64,000 bases of DNA from Bacteroidota bacterium (GTDB taxonomy: Bacteria; Bacteroidota; Bacteroidia; Bacteroidales; FEN-979), in the NCBI GenBank assembly GCA_026391775.1, contig JAPLDK010000052.1, positions 1-64,000 on the forward strand. Reading direction: 5' to 3'. The notes beneath the pieces were generated by a model. That model did not search any database. It was not told where the DNA came from and was given only the letters and a program-made list of their open reading frames with translations. How positions within the stretch are numbered: the first letter of the stretch is position 1; the number at the start of each line of letters is the position of its first letter. This document shows positions 5,437-24,751 of the stretch, piece after piece. The position numbers and the translations under genes are program-made.

Positions 5437-7227
5437 TTAATTTTTTTCAGGCTCAGGCAACTTTGTTTTAAACACTGACCACGCTAAAAGATAAGGGATG
5501 ATGGTTAATCCGGAAGCAACAGCAAGTCTGAGAATTATCATTTGAGGATATAATATCCACAGCAGTGAATAGGGTAAGATCAGTAGGAACAATAGGGCGA
5601 AAAACCTGATTAGCATTGGGTTTACAGTAAATAAATTAGCATATCCGGCATACACACCGACCAGAAGTGCACCTTTTTTTGTGCGGTACAGATCCCTTCC
5701 TGTGCGGAGGCCAATAATACTCTTACGGATGCTGTAAATGAAATAGATCAGAAAGCCGATGTACATCCAGATCAGAAGCCGCAACCAGGTATCAACCGGG
5801 AGAGCTGCCATCTGCCCTAAGCAAAAAAGGGCTCCAAGTATAGGAATTAGAGGTACCAATGGTGTGCGGAATGGACGTGGAATGTCGGGGCGCTTTTTCC
5901 TCAGGAAAATGATACTGATGCATACGATGGTGAAAGCAAGCAAGGTTCCGATAGAAACGAGCTCGCCAAGAATGCTTATCGGAAGAACGCCGGCAAGTAT
6001 CATAGCAACCAATCCTGTAAGCAAAGAACTGATGTATGGGGTCTTGAACTTTTTATGAACTCTGGCAAATACCTGGGGAAGCAATCCGTCCTTGGCCATG
6101 GTATAAAAGATTCTGGGCTGGCCAAGTAGCATTACCAGTATGACCGAACTCAAGCCAGCCAATGCGGCGATCTTGATGATAGGCCTAAGCCAGAACATCT
6201 TATCTCCCATGGAATCAACTCCAACAGCAACAGGATCTGGAACCAGAAGCCTTGGATAAGCAATGATACCGGTAAGTACAATGGCAACGAGTATATACAG
6301 GATCGTGGAAATTCCCAGGGATCCAAGGATTCCTATGGGCATGTGTTTCTGTGGATTTTTCGCTTCCTGGGCGGCCGTGGAGACCGCATCGAACCCTATA
6401 TAGGCAAAGAAGATCACCCCCGCCGCCCGGAATATCCCAGACCAGCCGAAATGCCCCCATTCACCCGTATTTGGTGGGATGAAAGGCTTCCAGTTGACAG
6501 CTTTCACGAAGAAAAAGCCAATCACAACAAACAGTATGATCACTCCAACCTTGGTGATGACCATGACGTTGTTGAAACTGGCTGATTCCTTGATACCGAT
6601 GATAAGAAGAAGAGTCAGAACGGCAATGATGAACATCGCAGGGATATTCATAATGGCATGTGTTGTGGGAAGAGAGGCCACATCCACTCCCTGCTTGGTA
6701 AGGAGATTTATCAGGTCAGTGGTTTTTGGGACCCAGCTGATTGGGCCGGGCGGATCGATCAGCGTAGTCCCGGAAGCTGCTGTGAACTGAACCGGAAGGC
6801 TGACTCCCAGATCTTTCAGAAAACTAACCATGTATCCCGACCATCCTACCGAAACGGTGGAGGCTGCGAAAAGGTACTCAAGGATCAGGTCCCAGCCTAT
6901 TATCCATGCAAGAAACTCCCCTAAGGTTGTATAGGCATAAGTGTAAGCACTGCCGGAGATCGGGATCATGCTTGCGAATTCGGCATAGCAAAGGCCTGCA
7001 AATGCACATGCGATACCTGAAATGATGAACGAGATCACAATGGCAGGGCCTGCATACTGGGCGGCAGCCTGTCCGGTCAGGACAAAAATACCGGCACCGA
7101 TGATGCCTCCTATGCCCAGGGTGGTCAGGTTTGTTGCGGTAAGCGCCTTTTTAAACCCCTGCTTGTTATCGGCGGCTTCGTCGAGAAGTTCCTGAATAGG
7201 TTTGATGGTGAACAGCTTACTGCCCAT
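5437..7227 (-). CDS. APC family amino acid permease
   Basis: TTLGIGGIIGAGIFVLTG motif and about 12 hydrophobic segments. Confidence 0.93.
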   Translation of the reverse strand: MGSKLFTIKPIQELLDEAADNKQGFKKALTATNLTTLGIGGIIGAGIFVLTGQAAAQYAGPAIVISFIISGIACAFAGLCYAEFASMIPISGSAYTYAYTTLGEFLAWIIGWDLILEYLFAASTVSVGWSGYMVSFLKDLGVSLPVQFTAASGTTLIDPPGPISWVPKTTDLINLLTKQGVDVASLPTTHAIMNIPAMFIIAVLTLLLIIGIKESASFNNVMVITKVGVIILFVVIGFFFVKAVNWKPFIPPNTGEWGHFGWSGIFRAAGVIFFAYIGFDAVSTAAQEAKNPQKHMPIGILGSLGISTILYILVAIVLTGIIAYPRLLVPDPVAVGVDSMGDKMFWLRPIIKIAALAGLSSVILVMLLGQPRIFYTMAKDGLLPQVFARVHKKFKTPYISSLLTGLVAMILAGVLPISILGELVSIGTLLAFTIVCISIIFLRKKRPDIPRPFRTPLVPLIPILGALFCLGQMAALPVDTWLRLLIWMYIGFLIYFIYSIRKSIIGLRTGRDLYRTKKGALLVGVYAGYANLFTVNPMLIRFFALLFLLILPYSLLWILYPQMIILRLAVASGLTIIPYLLAWSVFKTKLPEPEKN

Positions 7228-10797: not shown

Positions 10798-11256
10798 ATG
10801 GAAATGTCAACAATCAGAATCACGAAAGAATTCCGGTTTGAAGCCGCACATGCCCTGAAAGGTTACGATGGCCCCTGCAGGAATGTCCATGGACATTCGT
10901 ATGAGCTGGCAGTTACAGTCTCAGGCTTGCCCGGCAGGGATTCAGGCTCGCCCAAATATGGGATGGTCATGGATTTCGGCGACCTCAAATGTATTATCAA
11001 ATCAAATATCATTGACATTTTCGACCATGCGCTTATTCTGCATTCATTGTTAAAGGAAGAAAACATTATTCCCCCGGGAGAACCATTTACAAATGTGGTT
11101 TATGTCGACTATCAGCCTACCAGTGAGAATATCCTTCTTGATATGGTAGTCCGTATACAGGGAGTACTCCCTAAAGGCATAAAGCTTCATCACCTGGTAT
11201 TACGTGAGACAGCTACGTCCTATGCCGAATGGTATGCTTCCGACCAGGTAGATTAA
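10798..11256 (+). CDS. queD: 6-carboxytetrahydropterin synthase (QueD-like, PTPS family)
   Basis: FRFEAAHALKGYDGPCRNVHGHSYEL ... MVMDFGDLK ... FDHALIL ... PTSENI ... LRET. Confidence 0.88.
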   Translation: MEMSTIRITKEFRFEAAHALKGYDGPCRNVHGHSYELAVTVSGLPGRDSGSPKYGMVMDFGDLKCIIKSNIIDIFDHALILHSLLKEENIIPPGEPFTNVVYVDYQPTSENILLDMVVRIQGVLPKGIKLHHLVLRETATSYAEWYASDQVD

Positions 11257-11280: not shown

Positions 11281-11853
11281 CTACTTTGGAAGCAGATGAA
11301 TATCCACGGTGGGATCTTCACTTTCAATCTTTATTACATTGGCTTCGGATGATGCAGCGTCCTGGTCATAAAATGAAGGGATAAAGTTCCTGGTAACATC
11401 TGTCCCGGGTAAAGGATTGATGCGGATGAAATAATTGCCATGATCGATCCCGTTGAATTGGTAATAACCGTTACCATCAACCGGAACCGACTGAAGGAGC
11501 AGCACTGTATCGTAGGGTTTTACCTTGTCGTACACTTTAAACAGGTAAGCAGTGCCCTTGCAGATGCGCACTTCACCGGCATAAGCATGGCCGCGGATAT
11601 TGTGTTTGTGTGAATAAGAGAACCATATCATAATAAAAAGCAATACCATAGCAGCGGCTGCAAGCAATGGATACAGATTCCGGGAATGGGAGAATCCTGC
11701 AAAATTTTTCCTCAGGCCTGACAATCTTCCTTTTTTCGCTTCCAGGGGATGTATTCCTACCCTGATCTTTTCCCATGCCTGTTCGGGTGGCGGGGGCTCA
11801 AATCCTGTAAAAGCTTTTCTGTAATAGTCTTCTATGGTATCCTTTTCCTGCAT
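11281..11853 (-). CDS. Putative single-TM anti-sigma factor with extracytoplasmic beta-sandwich-like domain
   Basis: Follows an ECF sigma gene. Acidic cytoplasmic N-terminus, one TM (LYPLLAAAAMVLLFIMIWFSY), C-terminal IRGHAYAG...AYLFKV...GYYQFNGIDHGNYFIRINPLPGT domain. Confidence 0.7.
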   Translation of the reverse strand: MQEKDTIEDYYRKAFTGFEPPPPEQAWEKIRVGIHPLEAKKGRLSGLRKNFAGFSHSRNLYPLLAAAAMVLLFIMIWFSYSHKHNIRGHAYAGEVRICKGTAYLFKVYDKVKPYDTVLLLQSVPVDGNGYYQFNGIDHGNYFIRINPLPGTDVTRNFIPSFYDQDAASSEANVIKIESEDPTVDIHLLPK

Positions 11854-11857
11854 GTTC

Positions 11858-12388
11858 TTATAATATCCTTCTTAAAATTTTTTTCATCGAAGCTTTGGCT
11901 CTCCATAGCTGCGATTTGGATGTATTCTCTGCTATTCCGAGCATTTCGCCTATCTCCCTGTGACTGTACCCGTCGATAACATAAAGGTTAAATACAGTTC
12001 TGTAACCGGTTGGAAGGCCCTGGAGTATCCTCAGCAGTTCGTTATATGAAAGTTTTGACAAGGCATCTTCCTGAATAGTTGCATCGGAAGAATCATATTT
12101 CAGGCTGACCTCATTCTGAAACTTTAGCTGTTTTGTATAATAATTTATAGCCGTATTGACCATAATCCTCCGAATCCATGCGTCGAGTGCTTCTCTTGAA
12201 TGAAGGTGTGAAAGATTCTTAAAGACTTTAATAAATCCTTCCTGCAAAATATCCTCAGCCTCCATCCTGTTGCCGGCATAACGAAGGCAAATACCATACA
12301 TTCGGGCTGAATAAGCTTTATACAGGGCTTCCTGACCGCGTGGTTCGTTCAGTAAACATTGGTCAAGTACCTCGGCCGGGACCGTCAT
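11858..12388 (-). CDS. ECF-type RNA polymerase sigma-70 factor
   Basis: Region 2 (AEDILQEGFIKVFKNL) and region 4 (LPTGYRTVFNLYVIDGYSHREIGEMLGIAENTSKSQLWRAK). Confidence 0.95.
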   Translation of the reverse strand: MTVPAEVLDQCLLNEPRGQEALYKAYSARMYGICLRYAGNRMEAEDILQEGFIKVFKNLSHLHSREALDAWIRRIMVNTAINYYTKQLKFQNEVSLKYDSSDATIQEDALSKLSYNELLRILQGLPTGYRTVFNLYVIDGYSHREIGEMLGIAENTSKSQLWRAKASMKKILRRIL

Positions 12389-12457
12389 ATAAAGCTGTTG
12401 AGTGAAACAATTGGCAAGACGAAGATAAAAAAAATTCCATGCCTGTGGTAAAAAAAA

Positions 12458-12482
12458 GAAGCCGTCCTTCTGGAACGGCTTC
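12458..12482 (-). terminator. Terminator downstream of the PKD/T9SS gene
   Basis: Minus strand GAAGCCGTTCCAGAAGGACGGCTTC followed by TTTTTTT. Confidence 0.85.
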
Positions 12483-12513
12483 TACATTGCAGTGATTGAA
12501 TTGAATCAGTAGA

Positions 12514-14292
12514 TCAGCGGGTTTCACCAAGTATTGTTAATTTTCGAATAATGATCTTATCATCTGCTGTCTTTATCTTCAAATAATATGGCCCTATTCT
12601 AAGGCCGGAAAGGTTGATTTCGACTGTATTCGCACCGGATTCCAGCATTGCTTCCGACTGGATCATGGTTTGTCCGAGGGCATTGAACAACTTAATGTTG
12701 ATGTTCATTTCCCTGCTACAGTTCACCCTGAAACTTACTTTCTGCCCTGAAGCCGGATTGGGAAATAATTCACTTATGTAGCTTATGTTTACACCCGGAT
12801 CATTGATACCGTAAAGGATCTGCCCGTTTGACAGGGTAAACGGCAGTGTAACGTTCGGGCGGTTGTTGTCGATGGTAGTTTGCGCTCCGGATGAAGCTGC
12901 CCCAGCTTTCTCGGGCCTCACATTGTAAGTGCCGTACACCAGGTTTGCAAAAATGAAATTACCGCCGGTATCAGTCTTTGTATAGCCGAAAGGATGATTA
13001 TCCTGATCGAGAAGCATGACCTCAATGTCAGCTATTCCAGCACCGTTGCCGCTGAATTTTATCCCGCCCTGTGTAATTCTGCCCTGGATGTTGCCGTTAC
13101 CCGGCGCTGCCGGTGTGCATTCGACCAGATGGATATTATAAGGGTTCTGGGGTTGCCCCAGCACAATTAACTGTGCACTCTGCCAGCTCAGAGACTCTTC
13201 ATAATATGTTGGCATGAAATGCCCGTACCTCGTGGAAGCAGGCAGCAATTCGGCTTTAAGATAATAATTTCCGGCGGCAACACCTCCGAAATGAAAGCTG
13301 CCTGTTGAGTCACCGAATTCTTTACCTTGAACTACAGTCATGATATTGTTTGAATCAACTTTGATCAGGTCTATCCAGCCATGATCCACCATGTGAATGC
13401 CCATAAAAACGTGGCCGTTGACATCGCAGGTTGCATGTGCATAGATCTCTTGCGTCCTTGACCATTGACAGTTTGCCGAGTCAATAGTTACGAGAGTAAC
13501 TGTGTACGGACCTGCCGCAGGGTATGTGAAAGTAATACTCTGGCCTGTCAGTATGGTCCCTGAAGGATCGCCCATCTGCCAGGTATAGGTAGTAGGATAG
13601 GGGCTATTGGTGGTTCCATTGAACGTGAGGGTAAGCAAGGCGCCTGTATACGTGAGATGATTTTCACAATTGGCCGGTGGCGGTATGCCAACTTCAATGC
13701 TATCGCATTTTATGCTTGTGCATCCATTGGACGTGGCAATCGAAAGACAGACACTGTATGTCCCAGCAGCTGTGAAAATATGCACGGGATTCTGCACTGT
13801 TGAGGTATTGCTTGCTCCGCTGGCCGGATCACCGAAGTTCCACATCCAGGCAACAATGCTTGCTGAGCTGGTGCTTGCATCTGTAAAATGAACCAAGTGC
13901 ACTGAGTCCAGGGAGTGGTGAACGGTGTATGCAGCATGGCATTCCGGAGTAACGCAGATCACGAAATTCACCGTCGCAGGGCTGCTTGTACTTAGAAAAT
14001 CGTGGATGATCAGGTTGTTCTGGCAATCCCTGGTCGCAACATAAAAAATTACAGGATTTGCCGTAGGAACATGTTCGACGGTACAATCGTAAAACCCGTT
14101 AGGGTTTGTTTGCCGGGTGGTATAAAAGATAAATCCCGATGAAGAATCGCTATGAATAACTACTTCATGATTGGCTACCGGGGCGCCGGTTGAATCAGCG
14201 GTAACTGTTCCGCTCACATGAACCGTCATGGTTTGGGCATGTAAAAAGCCGGCCAGTCCGAGAAACATTATAAGAGATAAAAGTTTTTTCAT
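12514..14292 (-). CDS. PKD-domain surface protein with T9SS C-terminal sorting domain
   Basis: Signal peptide; PKD signatures (AWMWNFGDPASGASNTSTVQNPVHIFTAAGTYSVCLSI); carboxypeptidase-regulatory-like repeats; C-term ELFPNPASGQKVSF...LFNALGQ...LSGLRIGPYYLKI. Confidence 0.88.
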   Translation of the reverse strand: MKKLLSLIMFLGLAGFLHAQTMTVHVSGTVTADSTGAPVANHEVVIHSDSSSGFIFYTTRQTNPNGFYDCTVEHVPTANPVIFYVATRDCQNNLIIHDFLSTSSPATVNFVICVTPECHAAYTVHHSLDSVHLVHFTDASTSSASIVAWMWNFGDPASGASNTSTVQNPVHIFTAAGTYSVCLSIATSNGCTSIKCDSIEVGIPPPANCENHLTYTGALLTLTFNGTTNSPYPTTYTWQMGDPSGTILTGQSITFTYPAAGPYTVTLVTIDSANCQWSRTQEIYAHATCDVNGHVFMGIHMVDHGWIDLIKVDSNNIMTVVQGKEFGDSTGSFHFGGVAAGNYYLKAELLPASTRYGHFMPTYYEESLSWQSAQLIVLGQPQNPYNIHLVECTPAAPGNGNIQGRITQGGIKFSGNGAGIADIEVMLLDQDNHPFGYTKTDTGGNFIFANLVYGTYNVRPEKAGAASSGAQTTIDNNRPNVTLPFTLSNGQILYGINDPGVNISYISELFPNPASGQKVSFRVNCSREMNINIKLFNALGQTMIQSEAMLESGANTVEINLSGLRIGPYYLKIKTADDKIIIRKLTILGETR

Positions 14293-14368
14293 ATCAGGAT
14301 GTGAATTGGTGTAACGTATATTTAAGACAACGGAGACGGCAAAAGTTGCCTCCGGGCAGCTTTTCCTT

Positions 14369-15931
14369 TTAGTATTTTATGATCTTGGCATTACAGATCC
14401 TGTCTCCATTCAAAGTCTTGATAACCAGGATGTATATTCCGGGTGCCAGGGTGGCCAGATCAGCCTTGAGATGATACGATCCCGGGTTGAAATGTGAACC
14501 AGATTCAAGCAAATGAACAGACTGGATAGAATACACAGTAGTGATGAGGTCAACCGGCCTGTTAACCGTAAGGGGTATGCTTACAGCACCCTCTGAAGGA
14601 TTGGGGAAAGGAGATCCGGCAACAACAGCATTATCCTTGGCGATCTCATTGATACCTGTGACGTTATGATCATAAATATCCAGAACCAGGGTATCGGCAA
14701 TGGGATTTTGCAAGCTGATCCTGACCTGGCTGAACTTTGAGAACTTCCCTGTTGATTCCACAAAAAGCAGGTAATTCCCATATGGGAGGTCAGGGAAACT
14801 GAAATTCCCCGCTGCATCGCTAAGGGTATAGGTAATAAGGTTTTTGAGTGAATCAAGCAGGAGCACTTCGCTGCGGTTAAGGATGAACATGCCCGACGTC
14901 TGGATATGACGCTGCACTTTTCCTGAAATCCTCCCTGAACCGCTTATGCTGTCATTGGCCCTTTTAAGATAAATATCAAAGTTGAAAACATTGGTATCTG
15001 TTACTCCCAGCAGCTGCGACTGTTGCCAGTATACCGCTTGAAGATAATAAGCGGGAGCGTATTTCCAGGCGTTTAAAGAACCGGGTGTCAGTGTGACTTT
15101 AACGATATAATCGCCCTTAAGCAGGTGGGGGAAGGAATAGTAGCCCAGGTATGTGAAGGTCACTGTATCGAAAGCAACAACGTGGTTATTCACAAGCTTG
15201 TATAAATAAGCTATACCGGTATCACCTGTGCTAACCGGGTTATTGATAGGATGGTCTCCGATAAAAACGTGCCCGCCAATACTGTAATACCTTGGAGTGT
15301 ATATGTAGGTACAGGAGGAGTCAGCACAGGGGGCATCAAGATTATCCCTGCTGATTGACAGGCAGGCCTTGTAATGGCCTGAATTTGTGTAAGCATGGAC
15401 AGGGTTCCGTTCGGAGGATGTGGTACCGTCACCAAAATTCCAGGACCAGTGGTCAGGGTTCCCTGTGGATAAGTCAAAGAACCGGTATTTGTATGGAGTG
15501 ACTGATGAAGAATCAAGTTCAGCAATAAAATCAGCTGTACACTGAGGGCTGAACGATTCGCAGATGAAAAAATTGATGATGATGCTGTAAGAGTGAATGG
15601 GCTGTGATTGAATGTGAAGTGTATTGTGGCAGTCGTAGGTACTTACAAGTACGGTATCTCCCAATCCCGGGAGGTCGTGAATTGTATCGGCATAATTACC
15701 GCTGGTATCCGTATATACAGTGGAATTATATCCTATATATGGAACATTCACGAATACGCTATGATTTTTAACGGGATTGCCGGTGGAATCATTCAGTAAT
15801 TTTCCGGTGACTGTGATACTTATTGCTTTCAGCTGGTTGGTAATCAATGGATTTCCCCGGGCTTGCTGAACCAAAGCTGTTGATAAAAGTGCAAGAACAA
15901 GCAGTAAAAAGTATACTGTCTTTACTTTCAT
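14369..15931 (-). CDS. PKD-domain surface protein with T9SS C-terminal sorting domain (paralog of 12514-14292)
   Basis: Signal peptide; WSWNFGDGTTSSERNPVHAYTNSGHYKACLSI; C-term SPFPNPSEGAVSI...LAPGIYILVIKTLNGDRI. Confidence 0.87.
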   Translation of the reverse strand: MKVKTVYFLLLVLALLSTALVQQARGNPLITNQLKAISITVTGKLLNDSTGNPVKNHSVFVNVPYIGYNSTVYTDTSGNYADTIHDLPGLGDTVLVSTYDCHNTLHIQSQPIHSYSIIINFFICESFSPQCTADFIAELDSSSVTPYKYRFFDLSTGNPDHWSWNFGDGTTSSERNPVHAYTNSGHYKACLSISRDNLDAPCADSSCTYIYTPRYYSIGGHVFIGDHPINNPVSTGDTGIAYLYKLVNNHVVAFDTVTFTYLGYYSFPHLLKGDYIVKVTLTPGSLNAWKYAPAYYLQAVYWQQSQLLGVTDTNVFNFDIYLKRANDSISGSGRISGKVQRHIQTSGMFILNRSEVLLLDSLKNLITYTLSDAAGNFSFPDLPYGNYLLFVESTGKFSKFSQVRISLQNPIADTLVLDIYDHNVTGINEIAKDNAVVAGSPFPNPSEGAVSIPLTVNRPVDLITTVYSIQSVHLLESGSHFNPGSYHLKADLATLAPGIYILVIKTLNGDRICNAKIIKY

Positions 15932-17319
15932 TTCTTATTGCTTTTTCTTCCGAATTGATACTGAATACCAACATCAAGGCCAAATGCCTGGTTTGTGCGT
16001 GTCCCGTTTTCCGGGGATTGTGTGGGAGATGTCAGGAAATACTTGTAATAAGGATTGATCACAAGGCCCAGGTGTTTGGTAAACTGGTACTCAATAGTGA
16101 GCCGTACCCATAATTGCCAGTTAGTCGAAAGCCTTGCGGGCGAATTATCCTGAAGTTTTATTAACCTGCCATTTGGAATATCGATAGAGGGTTGGGCTTT
16201 CCTTTCGTTGATCAGGAAAGAGATTGCAGGACCGGCTTCAAATCCTAAGCAGAACCTCGGAGTTTCAAAAACATTGTAGCCAAGCAGCAAGGGGATCTGC
16301 AGATAAGTAAAACGGTTTCGGGTGCGGTCATCAGCAATATGTGTCACACTATCGTAGATAGCATGATTGCGGGTGATATAAATGATCCTTGATGGATTGG
16401 AGGGATCGGGATAATACCCAATGACTTCTTTGTAAAAGCTGACACTGTCATTGCTGCGGTATTGCATCTTGTAAATACCTTCGTCATATGTATAGCCAAG
16501 TCCCAGTCCTGTGCGAATCGAAAACCTTGAATAATGATATGCAATTCCGGCATTGGCCCAGTAATTGAATTCTTTGGTAGTAGCCCCGTTCGAGCGGTAT
16601 AATGCCATTTCTGGGGCAATACCGATATCTGCTGAGAAAAATGACGGAACCGGCATTGTTTCGCGCACATACTTAAAGACTTCACCCGAGCGGATAAAGC
16701 TGATAGTATCTAAAGCGGGTGATAAATCAAAATTAGAGAACACAAGAGGATCCAGGGAGTTGATACCGGTGAAGGAAACCGGGTTTGATGTTTCCGCATT
16801 ATTTTCTTCAACGGGATTTGTCGTCGGTTCAGCAGGTGGAACAGTTTTTTCAATTCTTGCATTGGATGCGATAAGTGCACCGGCAGCAAAATTGCGTTTA
16901 AGCGGAGCGCCTGCCCTCAGTATTGGGTTTGCCCCACTTAGTTTGGTCTGAATTGCGGGTTTTTCAGAAACAATTACAGGTTCCGTAGTGGGCACAGAAA
17001 CAATGTTTAGTGATGCGGAAGGCCGAACCAATGTCTCCGGATGAATTTCGGGGCGTTCCAGTGTGGTGCTCTTACTGTCGGATTGCAATGCCCAGTAGGT
17101 GAGAGAAGCCACTATAATAAGGCCCCCTGAAGCGGAAACAAGAGCAAGCTTCGGGATATTGACAAAGTTAAATTGCATCAGTTCCCTGATCATTAGCTTC
17201 CAGTTCAGGCTTTTCCATACTCCGGGAGAAGGGGTGAATTCCTGTTTCCCTATGGATTCCCTGAACAGGTCGTCAAAATTCTTTCCTGATCCGGAATTAT
17301 TATTTGATGGTTGACTCAT
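15928..17319 (-). CDS. Putative dual membrane-spanning anti-sigma factor (cytoplasmic N-term + TM + linker + outer-membrane beta-barrel)
   Basis: Immediately follows an ECF sigma gene. N-term FDDLFRESIGKQEFTPSPGVWKSLNWKL, TM LALVSASGGLIIVASLTYWAL, long Pro/Thr/Ala-rich linker, C-terminal beta-barrel pattern ending GLDVGIQYQFGRK. Confidence 0.75.
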   Translation of the reverse strand: MSQPSNNNSGSGKNFDDLFRESIGKQEFTPSPGVWKSLNWKLMIRELMQFNFVNIPKLALVSASGGLIIVASLTYWALQSDSKSTTLERPEIHPETLVRPSASLNIVSVPTTEPVIVSEKPAIQTKLSGANPILRAGAPLKRNFAAGALIASNARIEKTVPPAEPTTNPVEENNAETSNPVSFTGINSLDPLVFSNFDLSPALDTISFIRSGEVFKYVRETMPVPSFFSADIGIAPEMALYRSNGATTKEFNYWANAGIAYHYSRFSIRTGLGLGYTYDEGIYKMQYRSNDSVSFYKEVIGYYPDPSNPSRIIYITRNHAIYDSVTHIADDRTRNRFTYLQIPLLLGYNVFETPRFCLGFEAGPAISFLINERKAQPSIDIPNGRLIKLQDNSPARLSTNWQLWVRLTIEYQFTKHLGLVINPYYKYFLTSPTQSPENGTRTNQAFGLDVGIQYQFGRKSNKK

Positions 17320-17320
17320 A

Positions 17321-17881
17321 TTATTTTAAGTTCTTTTTCTGTCTGTTTTCTTCAATTTTATTCTTCAGCCATCTCCTGGCTTTGAACAGTTGCGTTTTTG
17401 AAGTATTCTCGGATATGCCAAGCGCTGCTGCAATCTCCTTATGTCCGTAATCTTCAAAAATATGCAGGTTGAACACTGTACGGTAGCCCACAGGCAGCTC
17501 CTGAATCAGTTTTAACAACAATGCAGGGTTATATTCATCAGGAAATTCAATGGGTTCATTCATATCCAGAATTTCAGTCTCCCTGATTTCATCAATCTTT
17601 TCATGACGAACAATCTTATTCCTTTTATTAATGTAATTGATCGCATGATTGACAATAACCCGTTTGATCCAGCCGGCCAGAGAACCTTCGCCCCGGAAGG
17701 AGTGAATGTTTTGAAAGACCTTGATAAAACCCTCCTGTAAGATATCTTCAGCTTCATCACGATCTCGGCAGTAACGCATGCAAACACCAAGCATTAAAGG
17801 GGCAAATGTGTCAAATAACAATCTCTGCGCCTGGCGTTTACCTGCAATACAGTCCTTCACTATTTGTTCATCGATGACCAT
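17321..17881 (-). CDS. ECF-type RNA polymerase sigma-70 factor
   Basis: RDEAEDILQEGFIKVFQNIHSFRGEGSLAGWIKRVIVNHAINY ... LPVGYRTVFNLHIFEDYGHKEIAAALGISENTSKTQLFKAR. Confidence 0.95.
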   Translation of the reverse strand: MVIDEQIVKDCIAGKRQAQRLLFDTFAPLMLGVCMRYCRDRDEAEDILQEGFIKVFQNIHSFRGEGSLAGWIKRVIVNHAINYINKRNKIVRHEKIDEIRETEILDMNEPIEFPDEYNPALLLKLIQELPVGYRTVFNLHIFEDYGHKEIAAALGISENTSKTQLFKARRWLKNKIEENRQKKNLK

Positions 17882-17963
17882 TAACAGGACTTATTTGAAG
17901 ACAATCCTTAATCCTTAGGGTTGCCTGTAATTCTAATTATCTCTTAAACATCATGATACCCAG

Positions 17964-18587
17964 TTATTCGATAGTCTCCCGGAAATTATCAAAGTTTTTC
18001 GCAAAAAAATCCCTGCCCTTATTGCTCATAATTCCATGAAGATGATATATGAACAACTCATGAAAAATCTCAAATGAATTAAGTTCATCAGCAGAAAACA
18101 GGTCATTATCCACAATAGTCTCTATCCTGAAGAGATGGAGTTTTGCGATGACCCCGGCATTCAGGTCCTTTCTGTAAAGTCCTTCCTTCTTACCTTTTAA
18201 TAAGTTCCGGAAAGTGTTCTCAAACATCGTTTTACGACGGACTTCTTTCACTGTCAGGAACAGGTCGGGATAATATTTCCGGATGTCGTAATCCATTGAA
18301 GGATTATACTCATGGATCATTATTTTGATGGACTGGTATATTTCGAACAACTCTTCCATCGCATTTAGTTTGCGCTGAAGAATGCCTTCAAATATCAGGT
18401 AGTTTTGTGAATGCTCGGAGGCGAGTACTTGGTTCACCAGGTCTTTTTTATCTTCAAAATACTCATATAATGTTTTTTTGGAAATGCATAGATGGCGGGC
18501 TACATCATCCATAGTCACGCTTTTAATGCCATAACGGTGATACAGCTTACTAACCTGACTCAATATGCTTTGTACTCTGTCACTCAT
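17964..18587 (-). CDS. TetR/AcrR family regulator
   Basis: N-terminal HTH YGIKSVTMDDVARHLCISKKTLYEYFEDKKDLV. Confidence 0.9.
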   Translation of the reverse strand: MSDRVQSILSQVSKLYHRYGIKSVTMDDVARHLCISKKTLYEYFEDKKDLVNQVLASEHSQNYLIFEGILQRKLNAMEELFEIYQSIKIMIHEYNPSMDYDIRKYYPDLFLTVKEVRRKTMFENTFRNLLKGKKEGLYRKDLNAGVIAKLHLFRIETIVDNDLFSADELNSFEIFHELFIYHLHGIMSNKGRDFFAKNFDNFRETIE

Positions 18588-18591
18588 AATA

Positions 18592-18599
18592 CAAAGGTA
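18592..18599 (-). promoter_or_regulatory. -7 promoter box of the tetR at 17964-18587
   Basis: Minus-strand TACCTTTG, very close to the ATG (18587). Confidence 0.5.
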
Positions 18600-18614
18600 A
18601 AAAATAATATCAGG

Positions 18615-18640
18615 GAAACTTTTTTTGGGTAAAAAGTTTC
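18615..18640. promoter_or_regulatory. Candidate TetR operator palindrome
   Basis: GAAACTTTTT-TTGGGT-AAAAAGTTTC, perfect 10-bp inverted repeat between divergent tetR and RND adaptor genes. Confidence 0.65.
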
Positions 18641-18781
18641 AGGATGTTACCCAGTCTGTCGTCCAGTTAAAATTTATGTAATAATTAACAAACCTTTTTC
18701 AGTGCATGGATTTTTTGGGATATGTCAGGAAATACCGGAAACGATTTCTCCATATAAAGTTTTTAACTGCAGGAAATTTGA

Positions 18782-18789
18782 TATCTTTG
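18782..18789 (+). promoter_or_regulatory. -7 promoter box of the RND operon
   Basis: TATCTTTG 54 nt upstream of the ATG at 18844. Confidence 0.45.
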
Positions 18790-18843
18790 CTGTTTTAAAT
18801 AAACCCGGACTTTTTTAACAGATAACGATTTAAACAGTACCAA

Positions 18844-19965
18844 ATGAAGAAGATACTTTGGATCAGCGGCATGATCATTTTTCTTGTTTCCTGTGGAAGC
18901 AACTCGGGAAACAAGCAGGCCAGACTTGAAGACCTTTTAAAGCAAAGGGAAAAGCTCACAGCTGAAATTACTAAGCTTGAAAATGAGATCAGTCCCCAGG
19001 GTAGCCAACCTGCCACAGCTGTTAAAACGATGGATGTGATAAAACGGCAGTTTGAACATTACATTGAAGTTCAGGGCCGGATCGACGGCAATGAAAATAT
19101 CGGGGTTGTTCCCCGTAACCAGGGTGGTGTAGTTACAAAAATATTTGTTACCCAGGGAGATCATGTGACTACCGGACAGGTACTGGCCGAAATTGACAAT
19201 GAGGTTCTCAAGCAATCTATGAAAGAGGTTCAGACTTCCCTCGATTATGCTTCCGACATGTTTAACCGCCAGAAGAACCTCTGGGACCAGAAGATCGGTT
19301 CCGAGGCCCAGTATCTTGCTGCCAAGAATTCCAAGGAATCACTGGAAAGGAGGATGAACACCCTCCAGGATCAACTCGACATGTCGAGGATAGTTTCTCC
19401 CATTAATGGCACTGTTGAGGATATTCCGATTAAAGTTGGGCAGATGGCATCCCCTGCCTCAGCCCAGCCGTGTTTCAGAATCGTTAACTTTTCGCGGGCC
19501 AAGGCTGTTGCCGACGTGAGCGAAGCATATTCAGCCAAGATCAAGACAGGAGATCCAGTAAGAGTTCTTCTTCCCGACCTGAACACTGAACTGAACGGAA
19601 CCGTTAGTTTCTCCAGTAAATATATCAATCCTACGAACCGTACATTCACTGTGGAGGCGATGCTGCCCCCGGCCCCCGGCCTGACGTTCAGGGCCAATAT
19701 GATTGCAGTTGTAAGGATCAAGGATTACAGCAATGCAAACAGCTTTGCCATCCCACAGAATTACATCCAGACATCCCGTGATGAAGGGCACTTTGTATTT
19801 GTTGCAGAGGAGAAAGCCGGCAAATATTATGCAAGGAAGCGAACGGTCACTCCTTTTATTACCTATAATGGACTTACCGAGGTCCTGGATGGCCTGAAAG
19901 AAGGGGATAAGGTGATTACCACAGGTTATAAGGACCTGTACGACGGTCAATTGATTTCCTTATAA
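18844..19965 (+). CDS. RND efflux periplasmic adaptor (membrane fusion) lipoprotein
   Basis: Lipobox FLVSCGS, HlyD/AcrA-type barrel-sandwich segments, coiled coil, LDGLKEGDKVITTGYKDLYDGQLISL. Confidence 0.92.
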   Translation: MKKILWISGMIIFLVSCGSNSGNKQARLEDLLKQREKLTAEITKLENEISPQGSQPATAVKTMDVIKRQFEHYIEVQGRIDGNENIGVVPRNQGGVVTKIFVTQGDHVTTGQVLAEIDNEVLKQSMKEVQTSLDYASDMFNRQKNLWDQKIGSEAQYLAAKNSKESLERRMNTLQDQLDMSRIVSPINGTVEDIPIKVGQMASPASAQPCFRIVNFSRAKAVADVSEAYSAKIKTGDPVRVLLPDLNTELNGTVSFSSKYINPTNRTFTVEAMLPPAPGLTFRANMIAVVRIKDYSNANSFAIPQNYIQTSRDEGHFVFVAEEKAGKYYARKRTVTPFITYNGLTEVLDGLKEGDKVITTGYKDLYDGQLISL

Positions 19966-19982
19966 TCTGATTTGATGAAATT

Positions 19983-22900
19983 ATGAAGAAGCCAGAGAAA
20001 ATCAAGGAATTTTTTGCAACCAGCTGGGCCATTGATAACAGGGCCAGTATTTTTGTTCTGACGATTATCATTACACTGCTGGGAGTGATATCTTACATGA
20101 ATATCCCCAAGGAACAGTTTCCAGAAATTGTTATCCCGACCATTATTGTCAATACGGCTTACCCTGGCACTTCGCCTGAGGATATGGAAAACCTTGTGAC
20201 CAGGCCCATTGAAAAACAGGTAAAGTCATTACAGAACGTAAAAAAGATCACCAGCAACTCAATTCAGGATTTTTCGTCGATAGTAGTGGAGTTTACAACA
20301 GGTATTCCTGTGCCCGAAGCCAAGCAAAGGGTCAGGGACGCTGTGGATAAGGCTAAGTCGAGCCTGCCGAATAACCTTCCCAAAGATCCTGATATTGCGG
20401 AAGTCGACATCTCGGAAATTCCAATCATGAACATCAATCTTTCGGGCGATTATGACTTGCAGAAACTGAAAAAATATGCTGAGGAGGCACAGGATAAAAT
20501 TGAGACACTGCCCGAGATCACCAGAGTGGATATTGTTGGTGCTCTTGACCGTGAGATCCAGGTCGACCTGGACATGTACAAGATGCAGGCGGCCAGCGTT
20601 TCTTTCAGGGATATCCAGAATGCCATTGCGGCAGAAAATGTGACTATCTCAGCCGGAAATATTTCAAACTACGGGATGAAACGCACCCTTCGGGTTACAG
20701 GCCAGTTCAAGTCTCCCAACGAGATCAACGATATCATTATCAAGTCATCAAGCGGTGCTACAATTTATATTAAAGATATTGCCGAAGTCAAAGACTCATA
20801 TAAGGAACAGGAAAGTTTTGCCCGCTTCGAAGGAAAAAACGTCATCACCTTAAACGTAATTAAAAAGAGTGGTGCAAACCTGCTGAATGCATCCGACAAG
20901 ATTAAGGATTTCATTAAAGAACTAAAAGCTTCGTCCTTCCCACCTGATCTGAAAGTTGAACTCACAGGTGAGCAGTCGCGGTTTACACGGAGCACACTCG
21001 AGGAATTAAATAACACGATAATTATAGGCTTTTTACTGGTTACCCTGGTACTGATGTTCTTCATGGGCCTGAATACTGCCTTCTTCGTGGGTTTGTCGGT
21101 TCCTCTTTCGATGTTTATTGCATACCTGGTTATGCCCCAACTGGGTTTTACCATGAATATGATCGTGATGTTCGGCTTCATTTTTGCCTTAGGTATTATT
21201 GTTGATGATGCCATCGTGGTGATTGAGAATACACACAGGATACACCGGCATATCCCGGATATAAAAACCGCTGCAAAACATGCTGCAGGGGAGGTTTTCC
21301 TGCCAATTCTTTCAGGGACACTTACAACCCTTGCACCATTCTTCCCATTGGTTTTCTGGCCGGGAATTGTAGGAAAATTCATGCATTATCTTCCTGTAAC
21401 ACTGATTCTTACACTCTTCGCCTCGCTTTTTGTGGCGTATATTATAAATCCAGTCTTCGCGGTCAGTTTCATGAAGCATGAATACGACCGGGGGGAGTAT
21501 AAAGTAAAGAAGAAACAGTTCCTCGTCAGCAGCATTATCCTTGCCATGCTGGCAATACTATTCTATGTTGCCCGGGTTTTCGCAATGGGGAACCTGCTGA
21601 TATTTGCCTTGATTCTTAACCTTGTTTATCGTTTATGGATTAAAAATGCCATTATCCGGTTCCAGGGTGTTTTATGGCCGGCTATTCTGAACTTCTATGA
21701 GAAACAGCTGAGGTTCTTCCTGAGTGGGCGTAATCCCTATTATCTGTTTGCCGGGGTTGTCGTATTGTTTTTCTTTACGCTCTATCTTTTTGGTATGTTT
21801 AAACCACAGGTTTTGTTTTTTCCGAATAATAATCCGGCAACAATAAATATTTATATCAAAATGCCTGTGGGAACCGATCAGAGAGTGACCGACTCGGTAA
21901 CCAAAATTGTCGAGACGAAAGTAGTCGCTGTTCTTGGAAAAAATAATCCGGTTGTTGAATCCATTATTGCGAATGTTGGCTTTGGTGCCGGTGAAAGTTT
22001 CTTTGACCGTTCAATCTCTCCTGAAAAAGGCAAGATCACTGTAAATTTCGTCGAAAGCAAGGACAGGAAAGGAGTCAGCACCAAGGATTACCTTGACCAG
22101 ATCAGGAGGCATGTCCAGAATGTTCCGGGAGCGACCATCTCTGTTGAGAAAAATAAAATGGGACCTCCTACAGGGAAACCAATCAATATAGAGATCACAA
22201 GCGATAATATCGATGACCTGATAGGCACTTCCAAGGACTTCATCGAATACCTCGATTCGCTGCAGATTCCGGGCATCGACAAGCTCAGATCCGATTTTGA
22301 TGAAAGTAAGCCCGAGATTGTCCTTGAAGTTGACAGGGTGAGGGCGAACCGGGAAGGGATTACTGTTGGACAAATTGGTATGGAGCTGCGCACGGCTATT
22401 TACGGTTATGAAGCGTCCAAGTATAAAGAAGATGAAGACGAATACCCAATCCAGTTAAGATATTCTGAAGTTCAGCGCAAGAACATCAACAGTGTGATTA
22501 ATGCAAAGATCACCTACCGCGATATGAACAGCGGGCAGTTGAGACAAATCCCCATTTCGGCAGTCACAAAAGTCGATTACCGTGATACTTACGGCGGGAT
22601 CAAGCGCAAAAACCTTAAACGGGTCATCACTTTATCATCCGATGTGACTTCGGGACACACGGCGAATGAGGTTCTTGCTAATATCGGGAGTGCACTGAAA
22701 ACCTATAAACTTCCCAAGGGTTTAGAAGTCAATTTTACCGGGGAGAGGGAAGACCAGGCCGAAACCATGGCGTTCCTTATCAATGCCATGATCATTGCCC
22801 TTGGGCTGATCTTCTTTATCCTGATAACACAGTTCGGGAGCCTGAGTAAGAGCCTTATCATACTCAGCGAGGTTATATTCAGCATTATAGGCGTATTCAT

Positions 22901-23369
22901 AGGGATGATCATTTTCCATATGCCCTTTGTAATTACCATGACAGGAATAGGGATTGTTGCACTCGGCGGGATAGTAGTCAGGAACGGGATCCTGATCGTG
23001 GAATTCGCCGATGTGTTAAAAGCTGAAGGAAGCACTACCCGTGAAGCTATTATCGGAGCCGGTAAAACCAGGATAACCCCGGTTGTCCTTACTGCCACCG
23101 CTACCATGTTGGGACTTGTTCCCCTGGCCGTGGGATTTAACATCAATTTCGTAACCCTGTTTACACAGCTTAATCCTCACATCTGGATAGGGGGTGACAA
23201 TGTGTCCTTCTGGGGACCCCTTTCATGGACCATTATTTTCGGGTTGAGTTTTGCAACTTTCCTGACACTGATCTTTGTGCCCGCATTACTTTTAATTGAT
23301 GCCCAGTCTCGGACCAGGTATAAAAGGAAAAGGGAACTTAAGAGATTTAAGAAACTTCAGGCTGCCTAA
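19983..23369 (+). CDS. RND efflux inner-membrane permease
   Basis: 1128 aa; AYPGTSPEDMENLVTRPIEKQ, FGFIFALGIIVDDAIVVIENTHR, GGIVVRNGILIVEF. Confidence 0.95.
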   Translation: MKKPEKIKEFFATSWAIDNRASIFVLTIIITLLGVISYMNIPKEQFPEIVIPTIIVNTAYPGTSPEDMENLVTRPIEKQVKSLQNVKKITSNSIQDFSSIVVEFTTGIPVPEAKQRVRDAVDKAKSSLPNNLPKDPDIAEVDISEIPIMNINLSGDYDLQKLKKYAEEAQDKIETLPEITRVDIVGALDREIQVDLDMYKMQAASVSFRDIQNAIAAENVTISAGNISNYGMKRTLRVTGQFKSPNEINDIIIKSSSGATIYIKDIAEVKDSYKEQESFARFEGKNVITLNVIKKSGANLLNASDKIKDFIKELKASSFPPDLKVELTGEQSRFTRSTLEELNNTIIIGFLLVTLVLMFFMGLNTAFFVGLSVPLSMFIAYLVMPQLGFTMNMIVMFGFIFALGIIVDDAIVVIENTHRIHRHIPDIKTAAKHAAGEVFLPILSGTLTTLAPFFPLVFWPGIVGKFMHYLPVTLILTLFASLFVAYIINPVFAVSFMKHEYDRGEYKVKKKQFLVSSIILAMLAILFYVARVFAMGNLLIFALILNLVYRLWIKNAIIRFQGVLWPAILNFYEKQLRFFLSGRNPYYLFAGVVVLFFFTLYLFGMFKPQVLFFPNNNPATINIYIKMPVGTDQRVTDSVTKIVETKVVAVLGKNNPVVESIIANVGFGAGESFFDRSISPEKGKITVNFVESKDRKGVSTKDYLDQIRRHVQNVPGATISVEKNKMGPPTGKPINIEITSDNIDDLIGTSKDFIEYLDSLQIPGIDKLRSDFDESKPEIVLEVDRVRANREGITVGQIGMELRTAIYGYEASKYKEDEDEYPIQLRYSEVQRKNINSVINAKITYRDMNSGQLRQIPISAVTKVDYRDTYGGIKRKNLKRVITLSSDVTSGHTANEVLANIGSALKTYKLPKGLEVNFTGEREDQAETMAFLINAMIIALGLIFFILITQFGSLSKSLIILSEVIFSIIGVFIGMIIFHMPFVITMTGIGIVALGGIVVRNGILIVEFADVLKAEGSTTREAIIGAGKTRITPVVLTATATMLGLVPLAVGFNINFVTLFTQLNPHIWIGGDNVSFWGPLSWTIIFGLSFATFLTLIFVPALLLIDAQSRTRYKRKRELKRFKKLQAA

Positions 23370-24751
23370 AACTGTTCAATAAGTTTGTTCAGCCTTGTTT
23401 TCTGGCTAAGGACAAGGAAAATAGACTGCATGTAGTTGCTGTTTGCAGTCAGGAATTGAGTATACCTCTGGTTCAGGTCGGTGCTTGAGGCAAGACCCTG
23501 GCGGTATTTCGTCATGGTCTTGGTGTAGATCTTCAGTGCAATATCAAATCCCTTTTTCTGGTTGAGATAGATAGCAAATGCATTGCTGAAATCCTTCTTG
23601 GCGGTTTCAACCTGCAGCTCCAGACCCACCCGCATCTTTTCGTCGGCGACTTTCGTTTTTTCCACATTGAGCCTGGCCTGGTCAACCGCGTATTTACGGC
23701 TTCCACTGCTCCAGATCGGAACCTGGAGAGACAAGCCCCAGTTCGTGGTCCTGTACCAGGGATACTTGTCGCTGAAAAAGGCCCATGAATTCATTGAAGC
23801 ATTGGCCGAGATACCCAGGAAACCGGCCAGCGTCGGCTGGTAGGCAGTCTTGGAAAGCTTGTACTGCATCAGGGTGAGATAATCGCTCTTCTTCAACAGG
23901 GTGTAATCGATATTCCTCTGGTAATCGAAAGGCTGGTTTATGAGAACGTCACGGTCAACCTGGGCAAGGAAAAAAGCCAGGTCATTGCTAAGAGTCATTT
24001 CCTGGTTGTCCTTAAGACCTACAACAAATTTAAGGTTGGCATAAGCGATATTACGGCTGCTCTTGACATCGGTGAGCTGGGCCTCAAGGTTCGACCGGTT
24101 CAAATCGGCCTGGTCCACATCGATGTCTTCAATAAGGCCCTGGGCCTGGGCTTTCCTTGACTCATCCACCAGCCTGCTTACGACCACATAGGTAGAATCC
24201 AGGATCTTGATCGCCTCGTCGGTGACCAGGAGCTGGTAATAGGCATTGGCAACCTGGTCACGGATGTCGACCTTGTCTTTTAAGTTCTTCTGCTTGGCGG
24301 TTTCCAGATAAGCCTTTGCCGTCTGCAATCCGACCAGGTACTGGCCGCTGTAAATCAGTTGGTTCAGCTGAAGAGCTCCCTGTACATTGTACTCCACATA
24401 TAATGACATGGGAACATAATCAGGACCATTCTTAAATACCGTAGGATCCATCTGTTTAAGGAAATTTGGCATCAACATCGTCGGTACGCTCAGGTAATCC
24501 ATATACGACGCACTTCCGTTTATTTGCGGAAGGCCTATAGCCGTATTCTGTTTAACCATTTTACCGGCTATCCTCACATCGGTGGCCGAATTCTTCAGGT
24601 CGAAATTGTTTTCATAGGCATAATCCTGTGCCTGCTGAAGAGTGAAGGCAAGTACAGTTTGTTTATCCTGGTTCTGTGCAGTCAGCAAAGTAGTTTGACA
24701 AGTCAGTAACAGCAATATACTACAAAACAGTTTATTGAATAAGGACCCCAT
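23366..24751 (-). CDS. TolC family outer membrane efflux protein
   Basis: Signal peptide; repeated helical OEP segments; QVPIWSSGSRKYAVDQARLNVEKTK. Confidence 0.92.
   Translation of the reverse strand: MGSLFNKLFCSILLLLTCQTTLLTAQNQDKQTVLAFTLQQAQDYAYENNFDLKNSATDVRIAGKMVKQNTAIGLPQINGSASYMDYLSVPTMLMPNFLKQMDPTVFKNGPDYVPMSLYVEYNVQGALQLNQLIYSGQYLVGLQTAKAYLETAKQKNLKDKVDIRDQVANAYYQLLVTDEAIKILDSTYVVVSRLVDESRKAQAQGLIEDIDVDQADLNRSNLEAQLTDVKSSRNIAYANLKFVVGLKDNQEMTLSNDLAFFLAQVDRDVLINQPFDYQRNIDYTLLKKSDYLTLMQYKLSKTAYQPTLAGFLGISANASMNSWAFFSDKYPWYRTTNWGLSLQVPIWSSGSRKYAVDQARLNVEKTKVADEKMRVGLELQVETAKKDFSNAFAIYLNQKKGFDIALKIYTKTMTKYRQGLASSTDLNQRYTQFLTANSNYMQSIFLVLSQKTRLNKLIEQF

Follow-up and report, generated by a model that had tools for sequence, protein, structure and literature searches.

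In Bacteroides thetaiotaomicron, Dma anti-sigma factors combine an anti-sigma segment, a membrane helix, a tether and an outer-membrane barrel; the paper on Dma2, from whose main text T9SS is absent, calls for the substrates sensed by Dma to be identified (PMC13088901). In Clostridium thermocellum, the anti-sigma factor RsgI6 carries a GH10 module that is 57% identical to Xyn10D, and the xyn10D promoter is recognised by sigma-I6 (PMC4711584). FecR/FoxR-type cell-surface signalling couples the periplasmic domain of an anti-sigma factor to an outer-membrane component (PMC11637429). Finally, two T9SS examples are relevant: in Porphyromonas gingivalis the C-terminal-domain cargo PorA affects PorXY-SigP signalling (PMC7712824), and T9SS type B cargo attaches to a PorP-like barrel of the outer membrane (PMC9143113). 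Here we describe antiS1, a short anti-sigma factor from uncultured Bacteroidales whose outer domain, which we call DOM, is shared with T9SS surface proteins encoded beside it. The fusion of DOM to the anti-sigma segment is real, conserved and apparently under selection.

On the minus strand of the window (the whole 64,000-nucleotide stretch analysed here) the gene order is sigma2, antiS2, PKD-C, PKD-B, a hairpin, sigma1 and antiS1 (Table 1). The first-pass annotation had picked out antiS1, PKD-B and PKD-C, and we confirmed all three reading frames where it had placed them; a second sigma/anti-sigma pair (17881-15928) lies outside the span it covered. Both sigma1 and sigma2 are ECF sigma factors by Pfam and NCBIfam. 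In antiS1, a cytoplasmic anti-sigma segment (residues 1-58) is followed by a membrane helix (60-81) and DOM (85-190). The layout predicted for antiS2 is an anti-sigma segment, a membrane helix at about residues 55-75, a long variable tether and an outer-membrane beta barrel. PKD-C sits in the sigma2 operon, the first 4 bases of its gene overlapping the end of antiS2, and the PKD neighbours go with this second unit of ECF sigma2, Dma-architecture antiS2 and then a DOM protein. The terminator-like hairpin between PKD-B and sigma1 probably splits them into two transcription units. The TTTTTTTTATCTTCGT element before sigma1 is similar across most of the genus and, by resemblance only, would be a housekeeping-like promoter box. 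Both PKD proteins are predicted T9SS cargo: the sorting domain of PKD-B scores above the cut-off in Pfam and TIGR04183 and the tail of PKD-C just under it in both, and the genome encodes the T9SS translocon SprA (2587 bits).

Table 1. Features of the sigma/anti-sigma/PKD cluster, in positions of the window
Feature	Coordinates	Strand	Basis
antiS1, anti-sigma factor, 190 aa	11281..11853	(-)	AlphaFold2, alignment
DOM in antiS1; predicted periplasmic face of inner membrane	11284..11601	(-)	sequence comparison
sigma1, ECF sigma factor	11858..12388	(-)	Pfam Sigma70_r2/r4_2
A/T-rich TTTTTTTTATCTTCGT element 5' of sigma1	12419..12436	(-)	
Terminator-like hairpin between PKD-B and sigma1	12457..12483	(-)	
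PKD-B, T9SS surface protein: 2 PKD, DOM, CarboxypepD_reg, Por_Secre_tail	12514..14292	(-)	
DOM in PKD-B	13123..13425	(-)	
ECF-type promoter motif GGCAACTTTTGCCGTCTCCGTTGTCT 5' of PKD-B	14325..14350	(-)	
PKD-C, T9SS-type surface protein: PKD, DOM, CarboxypepD_reg	14369..15931	(-)	
DOM in PKD-C	14963..15283	(-)	
antiS2, Dma-architecture anti-sigma factor	15928..17319	(-)	OMP_b-brl_2 5.5e-8
sigma2, ECF sigma factor	17321..17881	(-)	Pfam/NCBIfam
ECF-type promoter motif GGCAACCCTAAGGATTAAGGATTGTCT 5' of sigma2	17899..17925	(-)	

TetR regulator, HlyD-like, RND efflux and TolC-like genes adjoin the cluster (17964-24751), and the TetR gene has stayed beside sigma2 in most of the family. On the other side, a PTPS/QueD-like gene (10798-11256) is convergent with antiS1. 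In other families such a gene also adjoins the module-1 or module-2 units described below, marking a conserved chromosomal site.

Both anti-sigma factors resemble Dma in having an N-terminal anti-sigma segment and membrane helix, an adjoining ECF sigma gene and a short operon that includes a third gene, although that third gene is BT_1557 (DUF4943) in the case of Dma2 and encodes a T9SS surface protein here (PMC13088901). When its layout is compared with the description of the B. thetaiotaomicron proteins, antiS2 shows the full Dma arrangement, with tether and C-terminal barrel. The N-terminus and helix of antiS1 are homologous to Dma-type genes, the comparison being with the module-1 genes of the order. 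It has no long tether or C-terminal barrel, residues 84-190 of its 190 aa being DOM, and because these parts are missing we file it as derived from the Dma class rather than as a Dma. Like RsgI, antiS1 is a single-pass anti-sigma factor whose outer domain also occurs in secreted proteins, in the case of RsgI those of its own regulon (PMC4711584) and here ones that may belong to the regulon of sigma1; RsgI differs in being Gram-positive, in pairing with sigma-I instead of an ECF sigma, and in what it exposes at the cell surface, namely carbohydrate-binding domains or glycosidases. This likeness is one of working principle, and a sequence relation is not expected: neither Pfam nor NCBIfam gave an RsgI family match for antiS1, and its partner sigma is ECF. 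By analogy, the antiS1 system may work in principle like RsgI, and since RsgI anti-sigma factors of C. thermocellum carry domains that recur in secreted members of their regulon (PMC4711584), the first-pass statement that no system of this form had been described has to be given up. In FecR/FoxR-type signalling the anti-sigma factor meets the signalling domain of a TonB-dependent receptor, whereas no such receptor was found in the cluster. PorA shares with our locus the influence of a T9SS C-terminal-domain protein on an ECF-sigma pathway, but acts through a two-component relay without a fusion of DOM to an anti-sigma factor. A search of open-licence papers for anti-sigma factors and PKD domains in Bacteroidetes found nothing relevant.

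Judged by sequence comparison, the C-terminal ~106 residues of antiS1 and one mid-protein domain in each PKD/T9SS neighbour are homologous. BLASTP (database size set to 1.5 million) gave E-values of 6.5e-6 for antiS1 against PKD-B and 0.006 against PKD-C, and z-scores against shuffled sequences were 10-17. In profile-profile comparison, the antiS1 domain matched the PKD domain with 99% probability (E 1e-19, 98 columns), well ahead of the CarboxypepD_reg domain that the PKD proteins also carry (93%, E 2.4e-7, 39 columns), while their N-terminal domain gave no match. The domain common to the three proteins, as first proposed from inspection of the letters, therefore holds up, and the three-way match beats the generic CarboxypepD_reg one. 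Against Pfam, antiS1 DOM scored 20.4 bits with SdrD_B, where the curated cut-off is 29.7, and other DOM members matched SdrD_B or CarboxypepD_reg weakly (best E 1e-4), so that a generic assignment to either family falls short of the curated cut-offs. The AlphaFold2 model of antiS1 has a helix at residues 60-81 and a beta sandwich at 84-190, with pLDDT mostly above 80, and suggests a prealbumin/CnaB-transthyretin-like fold. The same fold is suggested at lower confidence for PKD-B, whose model is weaker (best Foldseek E 0.012), and sequence searches of solved structures with DOM matched prealbumin-like proteins weakly. In the genome of the window DOM occurs at four sites only, each inside an ECF sigma/anti-sigma cluster: antiS1, PKD-B, PKD-C, and a gene on contig C14 that comes after a Dma-type barrel gene. 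That contig (G000:C14:1-5197; L136), with the barrel and the DOM protein, and contig C18 (G000:C18:1-4000; L201), with a sigma gene and a Dma N-terminus, look like halves of a third sigma/Dma/DOM operon.

We found antiS1 in all seven genomes of the genus and in most others of the family. Where the contig extends far enough, sigma2-antiS2-PKD-C nearly always lies upstream of it, and PKD-B is present in only some of the family's genomes. The sigma1-antiS1 pair is separated from the PKD genes in one genus and in a single genome besides. Genomes sampled from four genera are without antiS1 and retain DOM surface proteins, mostly with sigma2-antiS2 immediately upstream. The conserved neighbourhood on which the first-pass annotation had staked its reading is thus there, the gene order being retained through related genomes of the family. 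At one locus (L127, G034:C8:57000-74000; ~6186-6239) sigma1 follows PKD-B and antiS1 is missing; with ~50 bases between it and the PTPS gene, this sigma1 is apparently an orphan. Outside the family, no full-length antiS1-type fusion appeared in 147 genomes of the order or 297 of the phylum (the genome of the window is itself part of both samples, and that of the order contains one other family member), and a search for related loci with a single protein returned six uncultured Bacteroidales/Bacteroidetes MAGs. In the genomes sampled, a short anti-sigma factor with fused DOM and no barrel therefore seems restricted to one family of uncultured Bacteroidales.

Other families hint at where this form came from. 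There, two sigma/Dma/DOM units can occur in tandem (module 1 and module 2), and in the sigma tree the family's sigma1 falls into the module-1 clade with 11 sigmas of the order (support 100/97). Each of these 11 is followed by a Dma-like anti-sigma gene and then by a DOM/PKD protein encoded separately. At its N-terminus, antiS1 aligned better with module-1 Dma-like N-termini (hhalign E 1.5e-16) than with those of module 2 (6e-10), module 1 being the closer in 21 of 21 sequences. Since the outgroup sigmas are also partnered with Dma-type genes, the short form is the derived one. Tree and profiles thus point to an ancestral unit of ECF sigma, Dma-type anti-sigma reaching from the cytoplasm to an outer-membrane barrel, and DOM-bearing T9SS surface protein. 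The sigma1 unit of the family has lost its separate surface protein, and with it PKD and sorting tail, as well as barrel and tether, leaving DOM right after the membrane helix, which makes antiS1 a variant derived from the Dma class and new in form. In the DOM tree the antiS1 domains form a single old clade (support 99/93), nested in neither PKD-B nor PKD-C. This tree lends no support to a recent duplication at the locus by which antiS1 would have received DOM from its neighbours. Calling the anti-sigma domain a copy of its neighbours' domain, as had been done, was accordingly too specific: AU tests (p 0.35, 0.26 and 0.23) did not separate module 1, module 2 and PKD-B as the sister, and hence as the donor.

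We also surveyed linkage of DOM to Dma across the 147 genomes of the order, taking hits outside the family and Dma genes within ~5 kb. A Dma-type gene lay upstream on the same strand for 45 of the 60 strongest DOM hits; over all 121 hits, it was upstream on the opposite strand once and downstream on the same strand six times. Conversely, 35 of the 36 best Dma matches had a DOM gene downstream. The strength of this link is partly ascertainment, because Dma-linked members went into the DOM profile, which biases its best hits towards them, and weaker hits are less often linked (14/61).

ECF sigma factors read motifs with an AAC core and GTC. An ECF-type motif, GGCAAC[CT]-N-[G/T]TCT, lies ~45 bases 5' of the sigma2 genes. 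When we scanned the 160 bases upstream of each ORF by gene class, it preceded 30 of 39 sigma2 genes, 8 of 20 PKD-B genes (that of the window, at 14350-14325, among them) and 1 of 336 other ORFs. This gene-class comparison alone is informative, as the whole-genome scan showed no overall enrichment (15 sites against 11 in the backward control). With the motif before PKD-B and PKD-C inside a motif-bearing sigma2 operon, both are predicted outputs of the ECF system, and the regulatory link from sigma system to PKD genes that was initially suggested stands as a prediction. We infer that sigma2 reads GGCAAC...TGTCT promoters by autoregulation. Before sigma1, no ECF-type motif is found in the window's genus, where the A/T-rich housekeeping-like element takes its place. 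The recognition helix of sigma1 is nearly identical to that of sigma2, so the two may have targets in common, and sigma1 possibly reads GGCAAC...TGTCT promoters too. Unlike the window's genus, four genomes of another genus, g5 (L040-L043), have a CAACC...GTC motif before sigma1. The genome has four TGTCT-type sites. One of them, a GGCAACC...TTGTCT motif at ~1839 on the minus strand of locus L200 (G000:C21:1-7000), precedes an ORF of 226 aa that by eye encodes a DUF1573-type exported protein; it may be a further ECF target or chance.

We propose that antiS1 is a collapsed Dma-class unit in which DOM controls anti-sigma release, and that the sigma factor then drives sigma2-antiS2-PKD-C and PKD-B; we give this proposal an even chance of being right. 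DOM would be the part that controls release in both layouts. With two genes, the Dma barrel would take its state from the DOM surface protein or from the arrival of that protein at the surface. For antiS1, the domain itself would exert this control: it might bind something in the periplasm that DOM proteins also meet (an export factor, or the DOM proteins themselves while heading for T9SS), or it might govern the access of a site-1 protease. Once freed, the sigma factor would activate PKD-B and the sigma2-antiS2-PKD-C operon via GGCAAC...TGTCT promoters, and the supply of surface proteins would be matched to export. Fusion of otherwise separate partners is a classical sign of functional coupling, and we infer that the signal has to do with the surface proteins that carry DOM, or with how they are exported. 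The envelope surveillance envisaged in the first-pass annotation is plausible.

Could DOM be a scaffold only? Any stable beta sandwich might shield the anti-sigma cleavage site, and DOM might then be a chance capture from a neighbouring gene with no present tie to DOM proteins. The fold is indeed common, and the residues that antiS1 has in common with surface DOMs are mostly structural Gly, Phe and Tyr. However, within the genus no part of antiS1 is as constrained as DOM (dN 0.167 versus 0.288 for the anti-sigma segment, with dS near saturation), which suggests upkeep by selection. Its single origin has been retained through several genera, and the captured domain stems from a gene class of the same operon type, all of which makes a bare scaffold unlikely.

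Readings in which antiS1 binds what the surface proteins bind have to face the most conserved feature of DOM, the Trp of PTYYG....W. It is present in 75 of 79 T9SS DOMs and, among antiS1 sequences, in 5/5 of genus g5 and 0/21 others. Its loss in 21 of 26 antiS1 proteins argues against antiS1 as a plain mimic of a single binding site, and the function of DOM may have shifted after fusion. This weakens the idea, raised at first pass, of a mimic competing for the same ligand, and with it the decoy in which antiS1 DOM competes with PKD-B and PKD-C for a chaperone or T9SS component and cargo overload frees sigma1. Cargo does pass through the periplasm, the predicted site of antiS1 DOM, and the ECF-type motif lies before PKD-B and the PKD-C operon. 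But T9SS components recognise the C-terminal sorting domain of cargo, which antiS1 is without, and we think such a decoy quite improbable. We rate as distinctly unlikely, too, an RsgI-like sensor whose DOM recognises the same ligand as the surface proteins, outside the cell or in the periplasm (e.g. a glycan or cell-wall fragment), freeing sigma1 and raising surface-protein production. The prealbumin-like fold and the precedent of a ligand-binding module common to RsgI and the secreted proteins of its regulon (PMC4711584) argue for it; against it are the eroded ligand-like motif, the predicted position of antiS1 behind the outer membrane, out of reach for a large ligand, and the failure of locus proteins to match any carbohydrate-binding family in Pfam or NCBIfam. 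Within genus g5 (L023, L040-L043, L110), antiS1 retains the YYG..W motif of the surface proteins.

Returning to DOM-controlled release in a collapsed Dma unit, the reading may extend further. Dma-type anti-sigma factors of T9SS-bearing Bacteroidales might monitor the T9SS surface protein of their own operon via DOM, in a closed loop between export and sigma factor that one family has shortened by fusing DOM to the anti-sigma factor; we put this forward tentatively, as somewhat doubtful. Replacement of the Dma barrel by a domain typical of the Dma operon's own surface protein would suggest that the latter contributes to the input. Furthermore, antiS1 would offer a small, testable version of the Dma input, and T9SS surface proteins, the Dma class and the ECF promoter motif would be tied into one regulon prediction.
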